From: a virus | DNA length: 32,701 nucleotides | IMG/VR virus record: IMGVR_UViG_3300013126_000130 | Coordinates: 1-32,701 of that record | Reading direction: 5' to 3' (one strand) | In this document: positions 349-5,855 of the stretch, in pieces | Layout of the letters: each line of letters begins with the position of its first letter | Position numbering within the stretch: the first letter of the stretch is position 1 | The notes under the pieces: generated by a model | Database searches by the model: none | Told to the model about the DNA's origin: nothing | Seen by the model: only the letters and a program-made list of their open reading frames with translations | Translations under genes and position numbers: made by a program

Positions 349-690
349 ATGAAAATACTATTCCTCGATGACGATCACAATCGGATCGATGTCATCAAAA
401 AAAGATGGGACGCAAATCATGAACTGAGCATTGCAGAAAATGCGGCTGAAGCTATTGATCTGTTAAAAAAGATCAAATTTGACTTGGCGAGCTTGGATCA
501 CGATCTTGGAGGAAAGGTTTTTCAACAGAGCGGTAAGAATACGGGTTACGAAGTAGCTCAGTTCATAGCAAAGATGAAAGACCCTCCGCCGATAGTAATA
601 GTTCACTCTTGGAATTACGATGGAGCTCAGAACATGCTAGCTGAACTTCGTGGAGTAACTGAAACTGATTATCAGCCATTTGTTGTATAA
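349..690 (+). CDS. Receiver-like protein, cyclic-phosphate-processing (cREC) type
   Basis: A 113-residue single-domain protein with a receiver-like fold pattern: an N-terminal strand ending in three aspartates (residues 7-9, ILFLDDDHNR), a second acidic site SLDHDLGG (about 48-55), the helix GYEVAQFIA and then VIVHSWN (about 83-89). The LDHDLGG and HSWN signatures are those of the cREC family, proposed to act on cyclic phosphates in RNA repair systems rather than in two-component signalling. There is no DNA-binding output domain. It starts 8 nt after the release-factor-like gene. The phosphatase, RNA ligase and tRNAs nearby fit an RNA end-processing role, but that is inferred. Confidence 0.7.
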   Translation: MKILFLDDDHNRIDVIKKRWDANHELSIAENAAEAIDLLKKIKFDLASLDHDLGGKVFQQSGKNTGYEVAQFIAKMKDPPPIVIVHSWNYDGAQNMLAELRGVTETDYQPFVV

Positions 691-703
691 ATTTAGAAAG
701 AAC

Positions 704-1117
704 ATGATAAAAGCAACTAGAAATCAAATCTACAACGTTCACAACCATTACCAGGGAAAGACCAAGAAGGTCCTGTGTGCGTGCTCCGCTGGTCTGTTAA
801 GGTCAGCCACTCTCCAGAATTTTCTGATCAGAGAGTACGGTTACAACGTCAGAAACTGCGGAACCGACGAATCTTACGCACTAATCCCTATATCCGAAGC
901 TTTGGTTGAATGGGCAGACGAGATAGTTTTCGTCAATTCTCAGAATTACAACATGGTGAAGGAAGAGATCGAAAGTCTTGGAGCAACCGAAAAGTGCTAC
1001 GTTCTCAATATTCCGGACATTTACGCGTTTAACGATCCTGCTCTAGTAGACATCTGTAAGGAACAGTACGAGAGAATCGTTCTAACGAAAGTGGCTGGTA
1101 CTGCTGACGATAAATAA
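704..1117 (+). CDS. Low-molecular-weight protein-tyrosine-phosphatase-like protein
   Basis: A 137-residue protein. Residues 23-36 (VLCACSAGLLRSAT) contain the C-x5-R phosphate-binding loop (C27 to R33) of the LMW phosphatase/arsenate reductase fold, followed by the family pattern of a Y-N-V strand and NCGTDE. The general-acid DP motif normally near the C-terminus is not obvious (NDPALVD near 112-118 is a candidate). I chose ATG 704; TTG at 680 is the alternative. The product could act on phosphoproteins or on RNA phosphate ends as part of the neighbouring cluster. Its last codons, GAT AAA TAA, form a late-promoter-like motif. Confidence 0.7.
   Translation: MIKATRNQIYNVHNHYQGKTKKVLCACSAGLLRSATLQNFLIREYGYNVRNCGTDESYALIPISEALVEWADEIVFVNSQNYNMVKEEIESLGATEKCYVLNIPDIYAFNDPALVDICKEQYERIVLTKVAGTADDK
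1109..1117 (+). promoter_or_regulatory. Late-promoter-like motif GATAAATAA, overlapping a stop codon
   Basis: GATAAATAA is one base from the T4 late consensus TATAAATA(A) and reads Asp-Lys-stop of the upstream gene. The next ATG is only 4 nt away, so a transcript started here would be nearly leaderless. This spacing differs from the other late promoters in the window, so it may be fortuitous. Confidence 0.3.
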
Positions 1118-1445: not shown

Positions 1446-1518
1446 CGCGGGGTGGCAGCAGAGGTAGCTCGCAAGGCTCATAACCTTGAGGTCGAAGGTT
1501 CGAATCCTTCTCCCGCAA
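1446..1518 (+). tRNA. tRNA-fMet-like (anticodon CAT), initiator type
   Basis: A full cloverleaf: acceptor CGCGGGG (1446-1452) with TCCCGCA (1511-1517), D arm, anticodon stem CAAGG/CCTTG, loop CTCATAA with anticodon CAT at 1479-1481, and T arm GAAGG-TTCGAAT-CCTTC. The first acceptor pair is the C1/A72 mismatch that marks bacterial initiator tRNA, and most of the rest matches initiator tRNA-fMet. It differs in having only two of the three G-C pairs in the lower anticodon stem (A-T at 29:41) and an extra C in the D stem. CCA is not encoded. The tRNA call is strong; its use as initiator is likely but unproven. Confidence 0.88.
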
Positions 1519-1570
1519 CACTTGTAGGTATCGCATCGGGCAAGTACTGGAATCTACCTACTATTTTTTT

Positions 1571-1599
1571 ACCTCATCCTGAAAAGGGTGAGGTTTTTT
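1571..1599 (+). terminator. Intrinsic terminator downstream of tRNA-fMet
   Basis: ACCTCATCCT (1571-1580), loop GAAA, AGGGTGAGGT (1585-1594; one G-T pair), then TTTTT. A weaker long-loop pairing (GTAGGTA near 1524 with TACCTAC near 1555) lies between it and the tRNA. It separates the tRNA from the RNA ligase gene starting at 1617. Confidence 0.8.
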
Positions 1600-1616: not shown

Positions 1617-2672
1617 ATGGAAACACCAGCACTATACTCACGGGACGATTTTAGGTCGCTAGTTTTTGCTCGCGATAATTACTCGTGTGTGATGTGCGGC
1701 AACCCGGCTAAGGACGCACATCACATCATAGAGCGTAGGCTGTTTTCAGACGGAGGTTATTACCTAGAAAACGGAGCTTCTCTGTGCGAGTACCACCACC
1801 TTGCAGCAGAAAGAACTACTCTATCGTGCAACGAGATTCGCAACAGTGCTGGTATAACTCAGATCGTCATACCTGATCACATGTACGATGATCTCCAATA
1901 CGATAAGTGGGGAAACATAATTCTGCCCAACGGCTTTAGATTGAGAGGTGAACTCTTTTACGACGAATCCGTTCAGAAAGTCCTATCAGAAGGGAACATG
2001 CTACACTTGTTTCAAAAGTACGTTAAGTACCCGAGAACGATGCACCTTCCTTGGAGCAATTTACTAAAGGATGACAGAATCTTGGCGAACGACGATCATT
2101 TTGTCGGAAAAAGAGTCATCGTTACCTTGAAGATGGACGGTGAGAACACGACCATGTACAACGATAAGATCCACGCACGTTCGTTAGACTCAGGAAGTCA
2201 CGAGACCAGGAATTGGGTGAAAGGCCTGTGGTCCAGAATCGGTTGGATGATCGACGATAACATGCGAATATGCGGAGAGAACCTCTACACTGTTCACTCA
2301 ATGAAGTATGACAACTTACCTTCATACTTCATGGTGTTTTCAGTTTGGATCGATAACACTTGCTTGGCCTGGGAAGAAACGACTGAGTACGCTCAGATCC
2401 TTGGACTGGAAACAGTTCCTGTGATCTATGACGGCATTTACGACAGAGAAGCTATCGAAAAAGCGTTTGCTCAGTACTCAGAAACTAATGAGGGTTACGT
2501 TGTCCGAATAGCTGACAGCTTCAACTACGGCGATTTCAGAAAGAGCATAGCCAAGTACGTTCGGCCGCAATTTAGGCAGGCGATCAACAATTCGCACGGA
2601 CACTGGATCTCAAAAAAAGTAGAAACTAATAAGCTGAAAAGTGACAGTTCAACGGAAAAAGTGGTACGTTAA
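1617..2672 (+). CDS. HNH domain fused to RNA ligase
   Basis: A 351-residue protein with two parts. Residues 10-65 look like an HNH/zinc-finger nuclease domain: VFARDNYSCVMCG (C24, C27), DAHHI (H35, H36), GASLCEYHHLAAE (C57, H60, H61). Residues about 160-320 carry nucleotidyltransferase ligase motifs: KMDGEN (motif I, predicted adenylylated Lys172), ENLY (221-224), EGYVVR (292-297), KYVR (313-316). The pattern fits Rnl2-like RNA ligases. ATG 1617 was chosen because it follows the tRNA and terminator; the open frame upstream runs through the tRNA. It may repair RNAs cut by host anticodon nucleases, or cut and reseal RNA. The ligase part is confident and the HNH part likely; the combination is unusual. 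Confidence 0.85.
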   Translation: METPALYSRDDFRSLVFARDNYSCVMCGNPAKDAHHIIERRLFSDGGYYLENGASLCEYHHLAAERTTLSCNEIRNSAGITQIVIPDHMYDDLQYDKWGNIILPNGFRLRGELFYDESVQKVLSEGNMLHLFQKYVKYPRTMHLPWSNLLKDDRILANDDHFVGKRVIVTLKMDGENTTMYNDKIHARSLDSGSHETRNWVKGLWSRIGWMIDDNMRICGENLYTVHSMKYDNLPSYFMVFSVWIDNTCLAWEETTEYAQILGLETVPVIYDGIYDREAIEKAFAQYSETNEGYVVRIADSFNYGDFRKSIAKYVRPQFRQAINNSHGHWISKKVETNKLKSDSSTEKVVR

Positions 2673-2806: not shown

Positions 2807-3106
2807 ATGACAACAAAAGACTTAAAATCGGAAATCAAAGCCCTCGCAGAAAAGCAGAGGCAGACCAAGGAACAGAGAAAAACTGTAAACTTCAAGGGAA
2901 CACGTTCTTTGAATCCTAAAGACGCGCAGCTTTTAGCGCTCGAACAGAAAAGCCAACTCAAGCACATGTACATCGCGTACGCTCTGCTCAGAGGCAAATC
3001 TATAGAGACGGCTATCAACCCGGAAACTGAGTATTCACAAAGAAAGGTTGACGAAATCATGGCGAAGTATGCAGAAGCTGTTTGTGTTAGTGAGAACGGA
3101 TCTTAA
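2807..3106 (+). CDS. Hypothetical small basic protein
   Basis: A 99-residue, lysine- and glutamine-rich, mainly helical protein. Residues 5-30 look coiled (LKSEIKALAEKQRQTKEQRK). No domain is recognised. It follows a 134-nt A-rich gap with no promoter motif I can identify; the leader before the ATG (AAAAAAATTCAAAAACA) has no Shine-Dalgarno sequence. Its 3' end overlaps the start of the Pth2-like gene by 38 nt, which suggests translational coupling. Confidence 0.7.
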   Translation: MTTKDLKSEIKALAEKQRQTKEQRKTVNFKGTRSLNPKDAQLLALEQKSQLKHMYIAYALLRGKSIETAINPETEYSQRKVDEIMAKYAEAVCVSENGS

Positions 3107-3362
3107 GGGATCCAGCCCAGCCGTACAGGCTGGCCACGCCGTCGCGCAGTGGATGATTGATCATCCGAACACCTGGGAAAACGAAACCCTGGTCTACCTA
3201 AACGTCGGTTCAAAGTTCGACCTGCACAAGTGGATCTCAAAAATTTACTACAAAGACTTGGATTTCTCAATTTTCAAAGAACCTGACCTTGATCACGAAG
3301 CAACAGCGATCGCTTGTTTAACCGATAAACGCAACATCTTCAGCAACCTTCCGCTCCTGTGA
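3069..3362 (+). CDS. Pth2-like peptidyl-tRNA hydrolase family protein
   Basis: A 97-residue protein starting MQKLFVLVRTDLKGSSPAVQ followed by AGHA. The L-V-R-T-D-L-K ... AxQxxHA pattern is the N-terminal signature of the Pth2 (archaeal/eukaryotic-type) peptidyl-tRNA hydrolase fold. Near the C-terminus FKEPDLDHEATAIA matches the family's E-P-D-L ... T-A-I-A strand. If active it would release peptides from stalled peptidyl-tRNA, fitting the tRNA and RNA-repair theme of the region. The start is inside the preceding gene (38 nt overlap). The stop codon lies in the stem-loop of a terminator. Family likely; activity inferred. Confidence 0.72.
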   Translation: MQKLFVLVRTDLKGSSPAVQAGHAVAQWMIDHPNTWENETLVYLNVGSKFDLHKWISKIYYKDLDFSIFKEPDLDHEATAIACLTDKRNIFSNLPLL

Positions 3363-3380
3363 GCGGAAGGTTTCCTTTTA
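3345..3380 (+). terminator. Intrinsic terminator overlapping the Pth2-like stop codon
   Basis: A 12-bp perfect stem, AACCTTCCGCTC (3345-3356), loop CTGT, GAGCGGAAGGTT (3361-3372), then TCCTTTT. The TGA stop of the upstream gene is inside it. Its presence supports the start of the next gene at 3392 rather than at an upstream codon within the stem. Confidence 0.8.
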
Positions 3381-3391
3381 ACAAGAAAAAC

Positions 3392-3814
3392 ATGGACACT
3401 TACTTAGATCATAAAAACGTAGTCAAGAGACTAGTTGACGAGTACCGATTTCACGAAGGTTTGGTCGTAGCGTACGATTTTGACAACACTGTGTACGATT
3501 ATCGCAAAAAGGGAGACACTTACGACATGGTAGTTGACCTACTAAGAACGTTGGAAAAAGTTCCTGGAATAAGCTTTGTTGTTTGGACCGGAACTGCTAA
3601 CGAACGCCACGATTTTGTTAGAGCCTATCTTCAAGCGAACGACATTCCGTACCATACGATAAACGAGAACCCATCTTTCTTCAAATCTTCGAGTAGAAAG
3701 ATCTTTTACAGCATCCTTCTCGATGATAGAGCTGGTTTAGTCTCAGCGTACAATGCCCTGGTTGACTTTTTGAACGAAATTGGGGTACAGTATTTTTACA
3801 AAGAAAGATCATGA
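3392..3814 (+). CDS. HAD-superfamily phosphatase
   Basis: A 140-residue protein. VVAYDFDNTVYDY (about 25-37) is HAD motif I with the nucleophile Asp29 and Asp31; FVVWTGT is motif II; RKIFYSILLDDRAGL carries the motif IV acidic pair DD. There is no sizeable cap domain, consistent with small phage HAD phosphatases acting on nucleotides, nucleic-acid ends or proteins. I chose ATG 3392 because a terminator lies just before it. The substrate cannot be read from the sequence; the neighbouring RNA ligase and tRNAs make a polynucleotide-end phosphatase plausible. Confidence 0.78.
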   Translation: MDTYLDHKNVVKRLVDEYRFHEGLVVAYDFDNTVYDYRKKGDTYDMVVDLLRTLEKVPGISFVVWTGTANERHDFVRAYLQANDIPYHTINENPSFFKSSSRKIFYSILLDDRAGLVSAYNALVDFLNEIGVQYFYKERS

Positions 3815-3858: not shown

Positions 3859-3861
3859 ATT

Positions 3862-3933
3862 GGGTTTGTAGTTCAGCGGTAGAACGGCGGTCTCTAAAAC
3901 CGTTAGTCGGGGGTTCGACTCCCCCATTCCCTC
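3862..3933 (+). tRNA. Amber-suppressor tRNA (anticodon CTA), Trp-like body
   Basis: D arm GTTC-AGCGGTA-GAAC, anticodon stem GCGGT/ACCGT, loop CTCTAAA with anticodon CTA at 3894-3896, variable TAGTC, and T arm GGGGG-TTCGACT-CCCCC are all well formed. CTA reads UAG. The body, especially TGTAGTTCA and the CGGTCTCxAAAACCG anticodon arm, resembles tRNA-Trp with CCA changed to CTA, as in the classic E. coli Su7 suppressor. The acceptor stem is poor: GGG/CCC pairs but TTT faces TT or TC. CCA is not encoded. A terminator follows immediately. The anticodon reading is clear; charging and function are uncertain because of the acceptor stem. Confidence 0.72.
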
Positions 3934-3986: not shown

Positions 3987-5855
3987 ATGTCTAAGAACAG
4001 GATAGCTCTAATCCAAGTATGGTTCGGTAAGCTTCCCAGCTATTTCGAGTACCACCACTCAACCTGCCTAAACCAGAGAATCGATTTTTACTTTTTCACC
4101 GACCAAGAAGTCGACAAAAAGTTCGAAGCTGAAAACGTAAAATTCTTCAAGATCACGCCGAGAGACGTTCAGCAGAGATTGTTCGACAGAACAAAAAGAC
4201 CTCTAGTAATCCCGTCAGCTTACAAGCTCAACGATATTAAGCCTACTTATCCGGACCTTTTTCGAGAGTATGTGAAGGATTACGAGTTCGTTGGTTGGTA
4301 CGATATTGACACTTTGCTTGGAGATGTTGCTTCCTGGATGGAACCTTATCTTGACGAGTTTGACGTGATCTCCTTCGGAGAGAACGGTCCAATTTACAAT
4401 CGCATCTCTGGACCTTTGGCGATAACTCGAAACACCGAAAAAGTTAGAACAGTTTACCTAAATGATCCAACCTTTTACGAGTGCATGTCAAAACCAGACT
4501 ACGACGAGTACGACGAGAGGAAGATAACCGAAACTTACGAAAAGCTAGGGATTCATGTGAAGGTCATGTTTGACTGTTCTAACATGGACCCGATCAGCTA
4601 CAAGATCAAGTTTGACGCACTTTGGACTGGCGGGAAAGTGTACGTTGGCGGAGTAGAAAAGATGATCTACCACTTCTTCAGAAAGAAGCACACTGAGTTC
4701 AAGAGAAGGGGCCAAGCGATCGTAGCTAGGAGAAAAGTGGAGTACTTGGACGATTTCTACTACATCACATACTTCACGCAGAGTTACGAGCCGACCGCTA
4801 GAACTCTGATCAGCACGATAGAAAAGTTCTCGAGAAGAAGGTGCATTTTGTACACGGTGAACTATTCGTCCACGTTAGTTCACGAGCTATCCGATCAATT
4901 CGTAGTTAGGCGGATAGACATCACAGGCAGGGATTTTCTTGACAAGCGCGGGCGCAGCTTCAACACGATCACTTCCAAGCCGGTCATTCAACTCGACTCA
5001 CTTACTGCTTTTCCAGGAAAGAAGTTCGTGTTCCTTGACACCGACATTTACATCACGGTAGGCATGGATTCGATAGCTAAGTACTTCAACCAGCTGGAAA
5101 ATTACCCCTTGACGAATTCCCACGTGCACGACGTCATCTACAGCATAGAAGATAACGGCGACCGCGTTAGTTCGTTGCACGCTCTTGGCGACGAGATAGG
5201 TGTTCCTGTTAGAATATTTCCTAGACGAAAGACCAACGTGATGCTATACGACGAAAGGTCAGCGTGGTTCTTCAAAGAGCAGATGGACATCTACAACGAG
5301 CACAAGGATTCGACCAGGAGGTCCATCTTTAAGTTTCACGATGAGGACACATTCAACATCATACTGTCAAAGTACGACCTCCCTAAAGCCCTCCCAGTAG
5401 TGGACATTGAGGAATCGTTCGACATAAACCTAAACATTTACGATAATTACACTTACAACTGCTGTCCAATATCTGACAAAGCAATCGTTCCGAAAACTGA
5501 TCGTGACGTTTACGTGTTTCATGGTTACAAGAGTCCGGAAGTTTTTCAGCAAGTCGAAGACACCTACGGCTCTACTGTTCTTGATAAAACCGACATGATC
5601 GTCGAGTACGACGGGAAGGACGTTGTTCTGATAAAAACATCGTTTCTCAAGGAGAAAAGGATCGAACCGAAAGTAAACGTCATTCTGAAGGACGATGATG
5701 CCGAAATATTTAGGTGTGGTTGGGAAATATTCAACTCTCAGCTGTTCTTCATCTGGGGAATTCACTTACAGAATCGCAAGACCTACTTGGTAGAACTGAC
5801 CGAACAGGGAACTGACCGTTTAATTTTCAGGACCGAGCTGATCACAAACTACTGA
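3987..5855 (+). CDS. Two-domain glycosyltransferase
   Basis: A 622-residue protein. Residues about 1-210 start IALIQVWFGKLPSYFEYHH, with FYFFTD and, at about 105-115, FVGWYDIDTLLGD. This is the D-x-D-bearing pattern of a GT-A-like family found in polysaccharide clusters (DUF6625-like as I recall it). Residues about 250-500 form a second sugar-transferase-like domain with FVFLDTDIYIT (D-x-D near 350) and a GT8-like layout. The C-terminus is a beta-rich tail. In phages such enzymes modify virion proteins, DNA or host surface sugars; the target is unknown. The next gene encodes a lectin-like virion protein, a possible substrate. It may be expressed from an upstream unit; AGTATAAG near 3961 is a weak promoter candidate. 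Confidence 0.8.
   Translation: MSKNRIALIQVWFGKLPSYFEYHHSTCLNQRIDFYFFTDQEVDKKFEAENVKFFKITPRDVQQRLFDRTKRPLVIPSAYKLNDIKPTYPDLFREYVKDYEFVGWYDIDTLLGDVASWMEPYLDEFDVISFGENGPIYNRISGPLAITRNTEKVRTVYLNDPTFYECMSKPDYDEYDERKITETYEKLGIHVKVMFDCSNMDPISYKIKFDALWTGGKVYVGGVEKMIYHFFRKKHTEFKRRGQAIVARRKVEYLDDFYYITYFTQSYEPTARTLISTIEKFSRRRCILYTVNYSSTLVHELSDQFVVRRIDITGRDFLDKRGRSFNTITSKPVIQLDSLTAFPGKKFVFLDTDIYITVGMDSIAKYFNQLENYPLTNSHVHDVIYSIEDNGDRVSSLHALGDEIGVPVRIFPRRKTNVMLYDERSAWFFKEQMDIYNEHKDSTRRSIFKFHDEDTFNIILSKYDLPKALPVVDIEESFDINLNIYDNYTYNCCPISDKAIVPKTDRDVYVFHGYKSPEVFQQVEDTYGSTVLDKTDMIVEYDGKDVVLIKTSFLKEKRIEPKVNVILKDDDAEIFRCGWEIFNSQLFFIWGIHLQNRKTYLVELTEQGTDRLIFRTELITNY

Follow-up and report, generated by a model that had tools for sequence, protein, structure and literature searches.

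The gene at positions 1617 to 2672 encodes a protein in which a zinc HNH domain is joined through a conserved linker to a compact Rnl2-like ligase core that carries all nucleotidyltransferase motifs. With a probability of about 50%, we read this protein as a phage-encoded RNA repair or RNA processing enzyme with two activities, in which both domains appear active as judged from their residues. The IMG/VR virus record IMGVR_UViG_3300013126_000130 is 131 kb long, and the window, i.e., the whole stretch of DNA that was analysed (32,701 nucleotides), forms its initial 32.7 kb. Genes for a T4-like portal protein and for a DNA polymerase of family B mark the source virus as a tailed phage. When phage records were searched with the window by megablast, nothing was returned beyond one 103-bp methyltransferase match (positions 1-103, 86% DNA identity to Flavobacterium phage DNA methyltransferase genes), which may hint at the host.

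Domain architecture of the fusion protein

The coordinates of the gene, its domains, and its neighbours are given in Table 1. An in-frame GTG is present at position 1401; since it precedes the gene of tRNA-Met, ATG 1617 is the sensible start. The Pfam profile RNA_ligase (PF09414) matches residues 166-315 (E 1e-29), while the Pfam HNH profile matches 11 of 77 aligned relatives but not the window protein itself. HNH profiles of the PHROG collection match residues 9-67 (phrog_144, 6e-9; phrog_589, 4e-8), and phrog_24030, annotated as RNA ligase, spans the whole protein (1.6e-124, profile positions 4-341 of 342). Sequence searches of the PDB gave weak IscB matches for the HNH part and no matches for the ligase part.

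A full-length AlphaFold model built from 77 family members reached a mean pLDDT of 94.5 and a pTM of 0.90. As the ligase domain dominates Foldseek searches with the whole model, which returned ligases only, the HNH part was modelled (residues 1-131, pLDDT 97.5) and searched separately. Its best PDB matches comprise the HNH domain of IscB (Z 6.6, 2.7 Å over 73 residues), Cap5, McrA-type nucleases, and the HNH protein of GVE2, which superimposes at 1.8 Å over 61 residues. The Foldseek E-values are weak for such a small HNH domain (best 5e-3), with matches that are consistently HNH and in line with the sequence motifs; likewise, Z values up to 6.6 are middling, as is usual for any small domain. 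IscB, McrA, Cap5, and GVE2 share the zinc beta-beta-alpha-metal fold and the pattern C-x2-C ... HH ... N ... C-x2-[HC]-H with the window protein, but none of them is joined to an RNA ligase.

In the full-length model, residues 133-326 match T4 RNA ligase 2 (Rnl2, 2hvq) and Naegleria Rnl (6vt1) with a Z of 14.9, and the nucleotidyltransferase core and motifs are shared with both. Residues 133-322 align to residues 0-234 of T4 Rnl2 only, after which about 30 residues remain, so that the Rnl2-type C-terminal domain is absent and an N-terminal HNH domain with linker is found instead. For this reason the ligase part is named an Rnl2-like core rather than a canonical Rnl2. The preliminary description had proposed that an HNH nuclease domain and an Rnl2-like ligase are fused in one protein, and this is correct on the evidence of PF09414, the HNH PHROGs, the models, and the family alignment: the expected HNH fold was found in residues 1-70, with HNH nucleases as best PDB matches; the pattern CxxC...HH...C..HH is present, with the zinc ligands C24, C27, C57, and H60 and the H-N-H catalytic set H35/H36, N52, and H61; and so are the ligase motifs I (K172-x-D-G), IV (E292-G..R297), and V (K313) together with E221, a further motif residue. 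K172 of motif I is presumably the adenylylated lysine.

Table 1. Features of the window and of related loci (L, locus of the family scans)
Feature	Locus	Position	Strand	Evidence or remark
cREC (cyclic-phosphate processing receiver) protein	window	349..690	+	PF20274, 3e-17
C-x5-R loop protein	window	680-1117		sub-threshold DSPc match
tRNA-Met (CAU)	window	1446..1519	+	neighbour
Terminator-like hairpin followed by T-run, between tRNA-Met and fusion gene	window	1571..1594	+	consensus match only
HNH-RNA ligase fusion gene	window	1617..2672	+	351 aa and stop; Pfam, PHROG, AlphaFold model
HNH (beta-beta-alpha-metal) zinc nuclease domain, residues 1-70	window	1617..1826	+	C24, C27, H35, H36, N52, C57, H60, H61; alignment and model matches
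Conserved linker, residues 71-135	window	1827..2021	+	Y95-D-K-W-G-N; alignment
Rnl2-like nucleotidyltransferase (RNA ligase) core, residues 136-341	window	2022..2639	+	Pfam, alignment, structure match
Ligase motif I, K172-M-D-G-E-N177	window	2130..2147	+	alignment
Ligase motif IV, E292-G-Y-V-V-R297	window	2490..2507	+	alignment
Ligase motif V, K313-Y-V-R316	window	2553..2564	+	alignment
Small protein	window	3048-3362		phrog_3668; PTH2, 0.079
HAD-like protein	window	3359-3814
tRNA with CUA anticodon	window	3861..3933	+	neighbour
tRNA with CUA anticodon	L019	4173-4244
tRNA with CUA anticodon	L036	4796-4868
tRNA with CUA anticodon	L054	3051-3124
HNH-RNA ligase fusion, HNH site decayed	L110	5001-6029		Pseudomonas serbica megaplasmid
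HNH/pseudo-ligase gene through ligase and HD-Pnk	L113	4977-7801		Bacteroidota
Intact stand-alone ligase	L113	6085-6744
HD-Pnk (HD and P-loop kinase protein)	L113	6665-7801
HNH/pseudo-ligase	L131	1011-1850		Bacteroidota
HNH/pseudo-ligase	L213	7717-8625		Bacteroidota
HNH/pseudo-ligase	L214	1815-2705		Bacteroidota
HNH/pseudo-ligase	L215	7506-8393		Bacteroidota
XacN1 ORF260	L013	1983-2633		E-K-M-D-G-E-N motif
Second ligase-like protein	L111	3800-4915		T-K-L-H-G-S-N motif
HNH and linker, no ligase	L201	about 4001-4800		H36 replaced by Q
ATP-grasp-like protein	L081	7034-7801		assigned by eye
Similar-looking protein	L010	3612-4508

Conservation and independent loss of the two active sites

The HNH-RNA ligase architecture is already known (phrog_24030; PMC7824862), HNH-Rnl2 fusions in jumbo phages having been mentioned by Iyer et al. 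2021 (PMC7824862), and the window protein adds one to their number. Homologues covering at least 80% of the length were found in 16 phage records, including those of Caulobacter phage CcrSC, Salicola phage SCTP-2, Acinetobacter phage ME3, and the archaeal halovirus HGTV-1. The proteins of these four named viruses have the same full-length domain order at about 34-54% identity and show no essential difference from the window protein, near whose gene cREC and tRNA genes are found. When viral and genome contigs were scanned, 389 viral stretches and 513 genome stretches proved to be related to the family (fused or unfused). The fusion itself was found at more than 100 loci, some of them on bacterial contigs and one on a Pseudomonas megaplasmid. 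As the domain order is kept at these more than 100 loci on different contigs, the fusion is neither a chance product nor an assembly joint. Two further ligases were noted in the scans: ORF260 of Xanthomonas phage XacN1 is annotated as a 2'-5' RNA ligase but, judging from its motif, is likely a misannotated ATP-dependent ligase of the same family, and in Achromobacter a second ligase-like protein is encoded immediately upstream of the fusion gene.

Mobile HNH genes are numerous in phages, and the fusion could be explained by a selfish homing-type HNH gene that was fused in frame to a ligase gene with little bearing on ligase function. The ligase tree fits such events insofar as fused and unfused forms interleave, with supported branches forcing at least two changes. 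A stand-alone ligase beside HD-Pnk (L142) even nests inside a set of fusions; fusion or loss probably occurred more than once, and a single origin is unsupported by the tree, whose deep branches are poorly supported. Against a selfish insertion, however, stands that the junction, linker, and residues are constant across viruses of bacteria, viruses of archaea, and bacterial chromosomes at 34-74% identity, and that the linker, which is part of the HNH module, is conserved as well. We consider this explanation very improbable.

Conservation was counted in 91 nonredundant fusions (<90% identity), for which the HH motif was part of one search pattern, while N52, C57, and H61 were part of none and loci could also be recruited through ligase or linker patterns. 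In the HNH part, C24, C27, H36, N52, and C57 are 100% conserved, H35 and H61 99% (both altered solely in L110), and position 60 is either H or C, as a zinc ligand would be. K172, D174, G175, E221, E292, and K313 of the ligase part are likewise 100% conserved, so that the catalytic and zinc residues of the HNH domain are kept roughly as strictly as the ligase lysine. Positions conserved to at least 98% make up 18 of 65 in the HNH part versus 17 of 205 in the ligase part.

The two active sites were also found to decay separately. The fusion of the Pseudomonas serbica megaplasmid (L110) has a decayed HNH site (H35T, H61R) with the zinc cysteines kept and the ligase intact. The reverse was found in five Bacteroidota proteins (L113, L131, L213, L214, and L215), in which all HNH residues and the linker are kept and the ligase motifs are lost. 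On average, their HNH parts share 63% pairwise identity but their ligase parts only 25%, compared with 64% and 54% in intact fusions. Judging from these residues, each active site of the fusion can be lost independently, and the HNH site is selected in its own right, because five proteins keep it while the ligase erodes and L110 does the reverse. A phage protein consisting of HNH and linker without ligase, in which H36 is replaced by Q, was observed in L201.

These counts and losses bear on the suggestion in the preliminary description that the nuclease is retained as a nucleic-acid clamp, in which case the HNH fold would be non-catalytic and replace the missing Rnl2 C-terminal domain or an OB domain. 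The short ligase core would leave room for such a role, and L110 looks like a natural clamp. The suggestion is nevertheless disfavoured, and we regard it as improbable, since at least 90 of the 91 sequences keep each of H36, N52, H61, and the zinc ligands, equally long stand-alone ligases manage without any clamp, and the HNH site outlasted the ligase in five proteins.

Stand-alone sister ligases and the proposed activity

The nearest kin of the ligase part are stand-alone short RNA ligases of Paenibacillaceae, Myxococcota, Verrucomicrobiota, and Gammaproteobacteria, which align to residues 136-340 of the fusion at about 50% identity. They lack the HNH domain and linker and are accompanied by a healing enzyme, HD-Pnk (Pnk-HD in Paenibacillaceae), that is nearly always missing beside the fused forms. 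Within 1 kb, it was found at 45 of 59 chromosomal stand-alone ligases versus 0 of 17 chromosomal fusions (Fisher 7e-9 with kinship ignored; three of the 17 fusions have short flanks). No HD-Pnk or Pnk-HD gene lies beside the ligase gene in the window, and L010, where HD-Pnk begins 3 bp past the fusion stop, is the sole phage fusion with this neighbour. The only other case among fused-family forms is L113, in which an intact stand-alone ligase gene lies downstream of the HNH/pseudo-ligase gene, between it and HD-Pnk. Phages do possess other healing enzymes, which limits this contrast: matches to the polynucleotide-kinase family phrog_415 were strong in 4 of 33 virus records and at least weak in 16 of 33. 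The HD-Pnk of Runella has reportedly been the subject of published papers.

By family chemistry, the ligase would adenylylate itself on K172 and seal broken RNA whose ends are a 5'-phosphate and a 3'-OH. Ends of this kind are left by HNH nucleases, which perform a metal-assisted hydrolysis, and serve Rnl2-type ligases as substrates. One protein could thus both make or trim a break with its HNH domain and seal it, with no need for an end-healing kinase or phosphatase; healing would be dispensable because HNH hydrolysis would itself supply clean ends. The role may be the repair or remodelling of RNA (tRNA) in tRNA-rich phages, as is suggested by the stand-alone sisters with HD-Pnk, by L010 with HD-Pnk behind the fusion, by L052 with the fusion behind cREC, and by the cREC gene nearby in the window. 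We tentatively entertain a more specific form, at well below even odds, in which the protein is a true cut-and-seal RNA enzyme whose HNH domain cuts or trims RNA and whose ligase joins the ends directly, rendering the HD-Pnk step unnecessary. If true, this would explain both the missing HD-Pnk beside fused ligases and the Bacteroidota split into an HNH/pseudo-ligase protein and a separate ligase. The cut-and-seal processing or repair of tRNA envisaged in the preliminary description is therefore possible and is favoured in its general form of RNA repair or processing, while tRNA as the HNH target stays a prediction.

HNH nucleases are mostly DNA enzymes, and the cutting target could therefore be DNA. 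The closest folds (IscB, McrA-type, and Cap5) indeed cut DNA, and the two activities need not share one substrate because they are separated in nature, namely in L110 and the pseudo-ligase branch. The HNH domain would then attack host DNA or that of superinfecting phages, and RNA repair would be left to the ligase, both merely travelling together; such a DNA-attack role was proposed as a possibility for HNH-Rnl2 fusions (Iyer et al. 2021, PMC7824862). We consider it rather unlikely given that in L113 the genes for an intact RNA ligase and for HD-Pnk lie next to the HNH/pseudo-ligase gene, which is an RNA repair setting, that the L213 gene sits among ordinary-looking metabolic genes on an 8.4-Mb contig, and that no DNA-targeting partner is conserved among the neighbours.

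HNH-RNA ligase fusions are widespread, yet the literature search yielded PMC7824862 only and no experimental study of them. Nor did the searchable literature contain earlier reports of the HD-Pnk contrast, of an invariance test, or of the reciprocal losses. With these losses, the conserved HNH site, and the missing HD-Pnk, what had been a review's passing remark can be put as testable questions, namely what the HNH domain cuts and whether the ligase seals that break. If the ligase seals a break made by the HNH domain, the RNA repair or processing enzyme proposed here would be a compact RNA remodelling or repair enzyme that works without end healing, relevant to phage answers to tRNA-cutting defences and a candidate RNA tool.

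Genomic neighbourhood

The two nearby tRNAs of the preliminary description are real genes but weaker evidence than it implied. tRNA-Met and the fusion gene are probably not co-transcribed given the terminator-like hairpin between them, a call that rests on hairpin shape and T-run because such sites are about as frequent in shuffled sequence. Although tRNAs are encoded in 31 of 32 large fusion-bearing records, half of the fusion relatives have no tRNA within 5 kb, and the 91 tRNAs counted in the loci of 30 records (37 expected under uniform placement) come mostly from a few tRNA arrays. tRNA proximity is thus only suggestive of the fusion's role. In 4 of 60 viral loci, a CUA (amber) tRNA gene lies no more than about 2 kb away from the fusion gene; these tRNAs diverge strongly from each other and are possible suppressor tRNAs. 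Among 36 forward window genes whose stop codon was checked, just 2 end in TAG.

The linkage with cREC noted in the preliminary description proved real, as cREC is encoded in 16 of 32 large fusion-bearing virus records, though directly adjacent to the fusion in just 2 of 32; in L052, it lies 2 bp upstream of the fusion gene. The role of cREC has been predicted and cREC has been linked with RNA ligases (Iyer et al. 2021, PMC7824862), and the neighbouring cREC is a possible end-processing partner of the fusion. cREC has been reported in 'up to 18%' of jumbo phages (PMC9503650); its enrichment (50% of records versus that figure) was discarded as evidence because the comparison is uncontrolled. The neighbouring phosphatases named earlier are recognizable by a C-x5-R loop and a HAD-like protein, respectively, but are less firm than stated, the DSPc match being sub-threshold.

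Across the family, no conserved operon partner of the fused form was found, and the commonest neighbour cluster comprises 8 loci (L081 and seven others). Its protein appears ATP-grasp-like by eye, and a protein of L010 looks similar. The small window protein between the fusion gene and the CUA tRNA belongs to phrog_3668, a phage hydrolase family, and weakly matches peptidyl-tRNA hydrolase 2; relatives of it are encoded near the fusion in L019 and L036.
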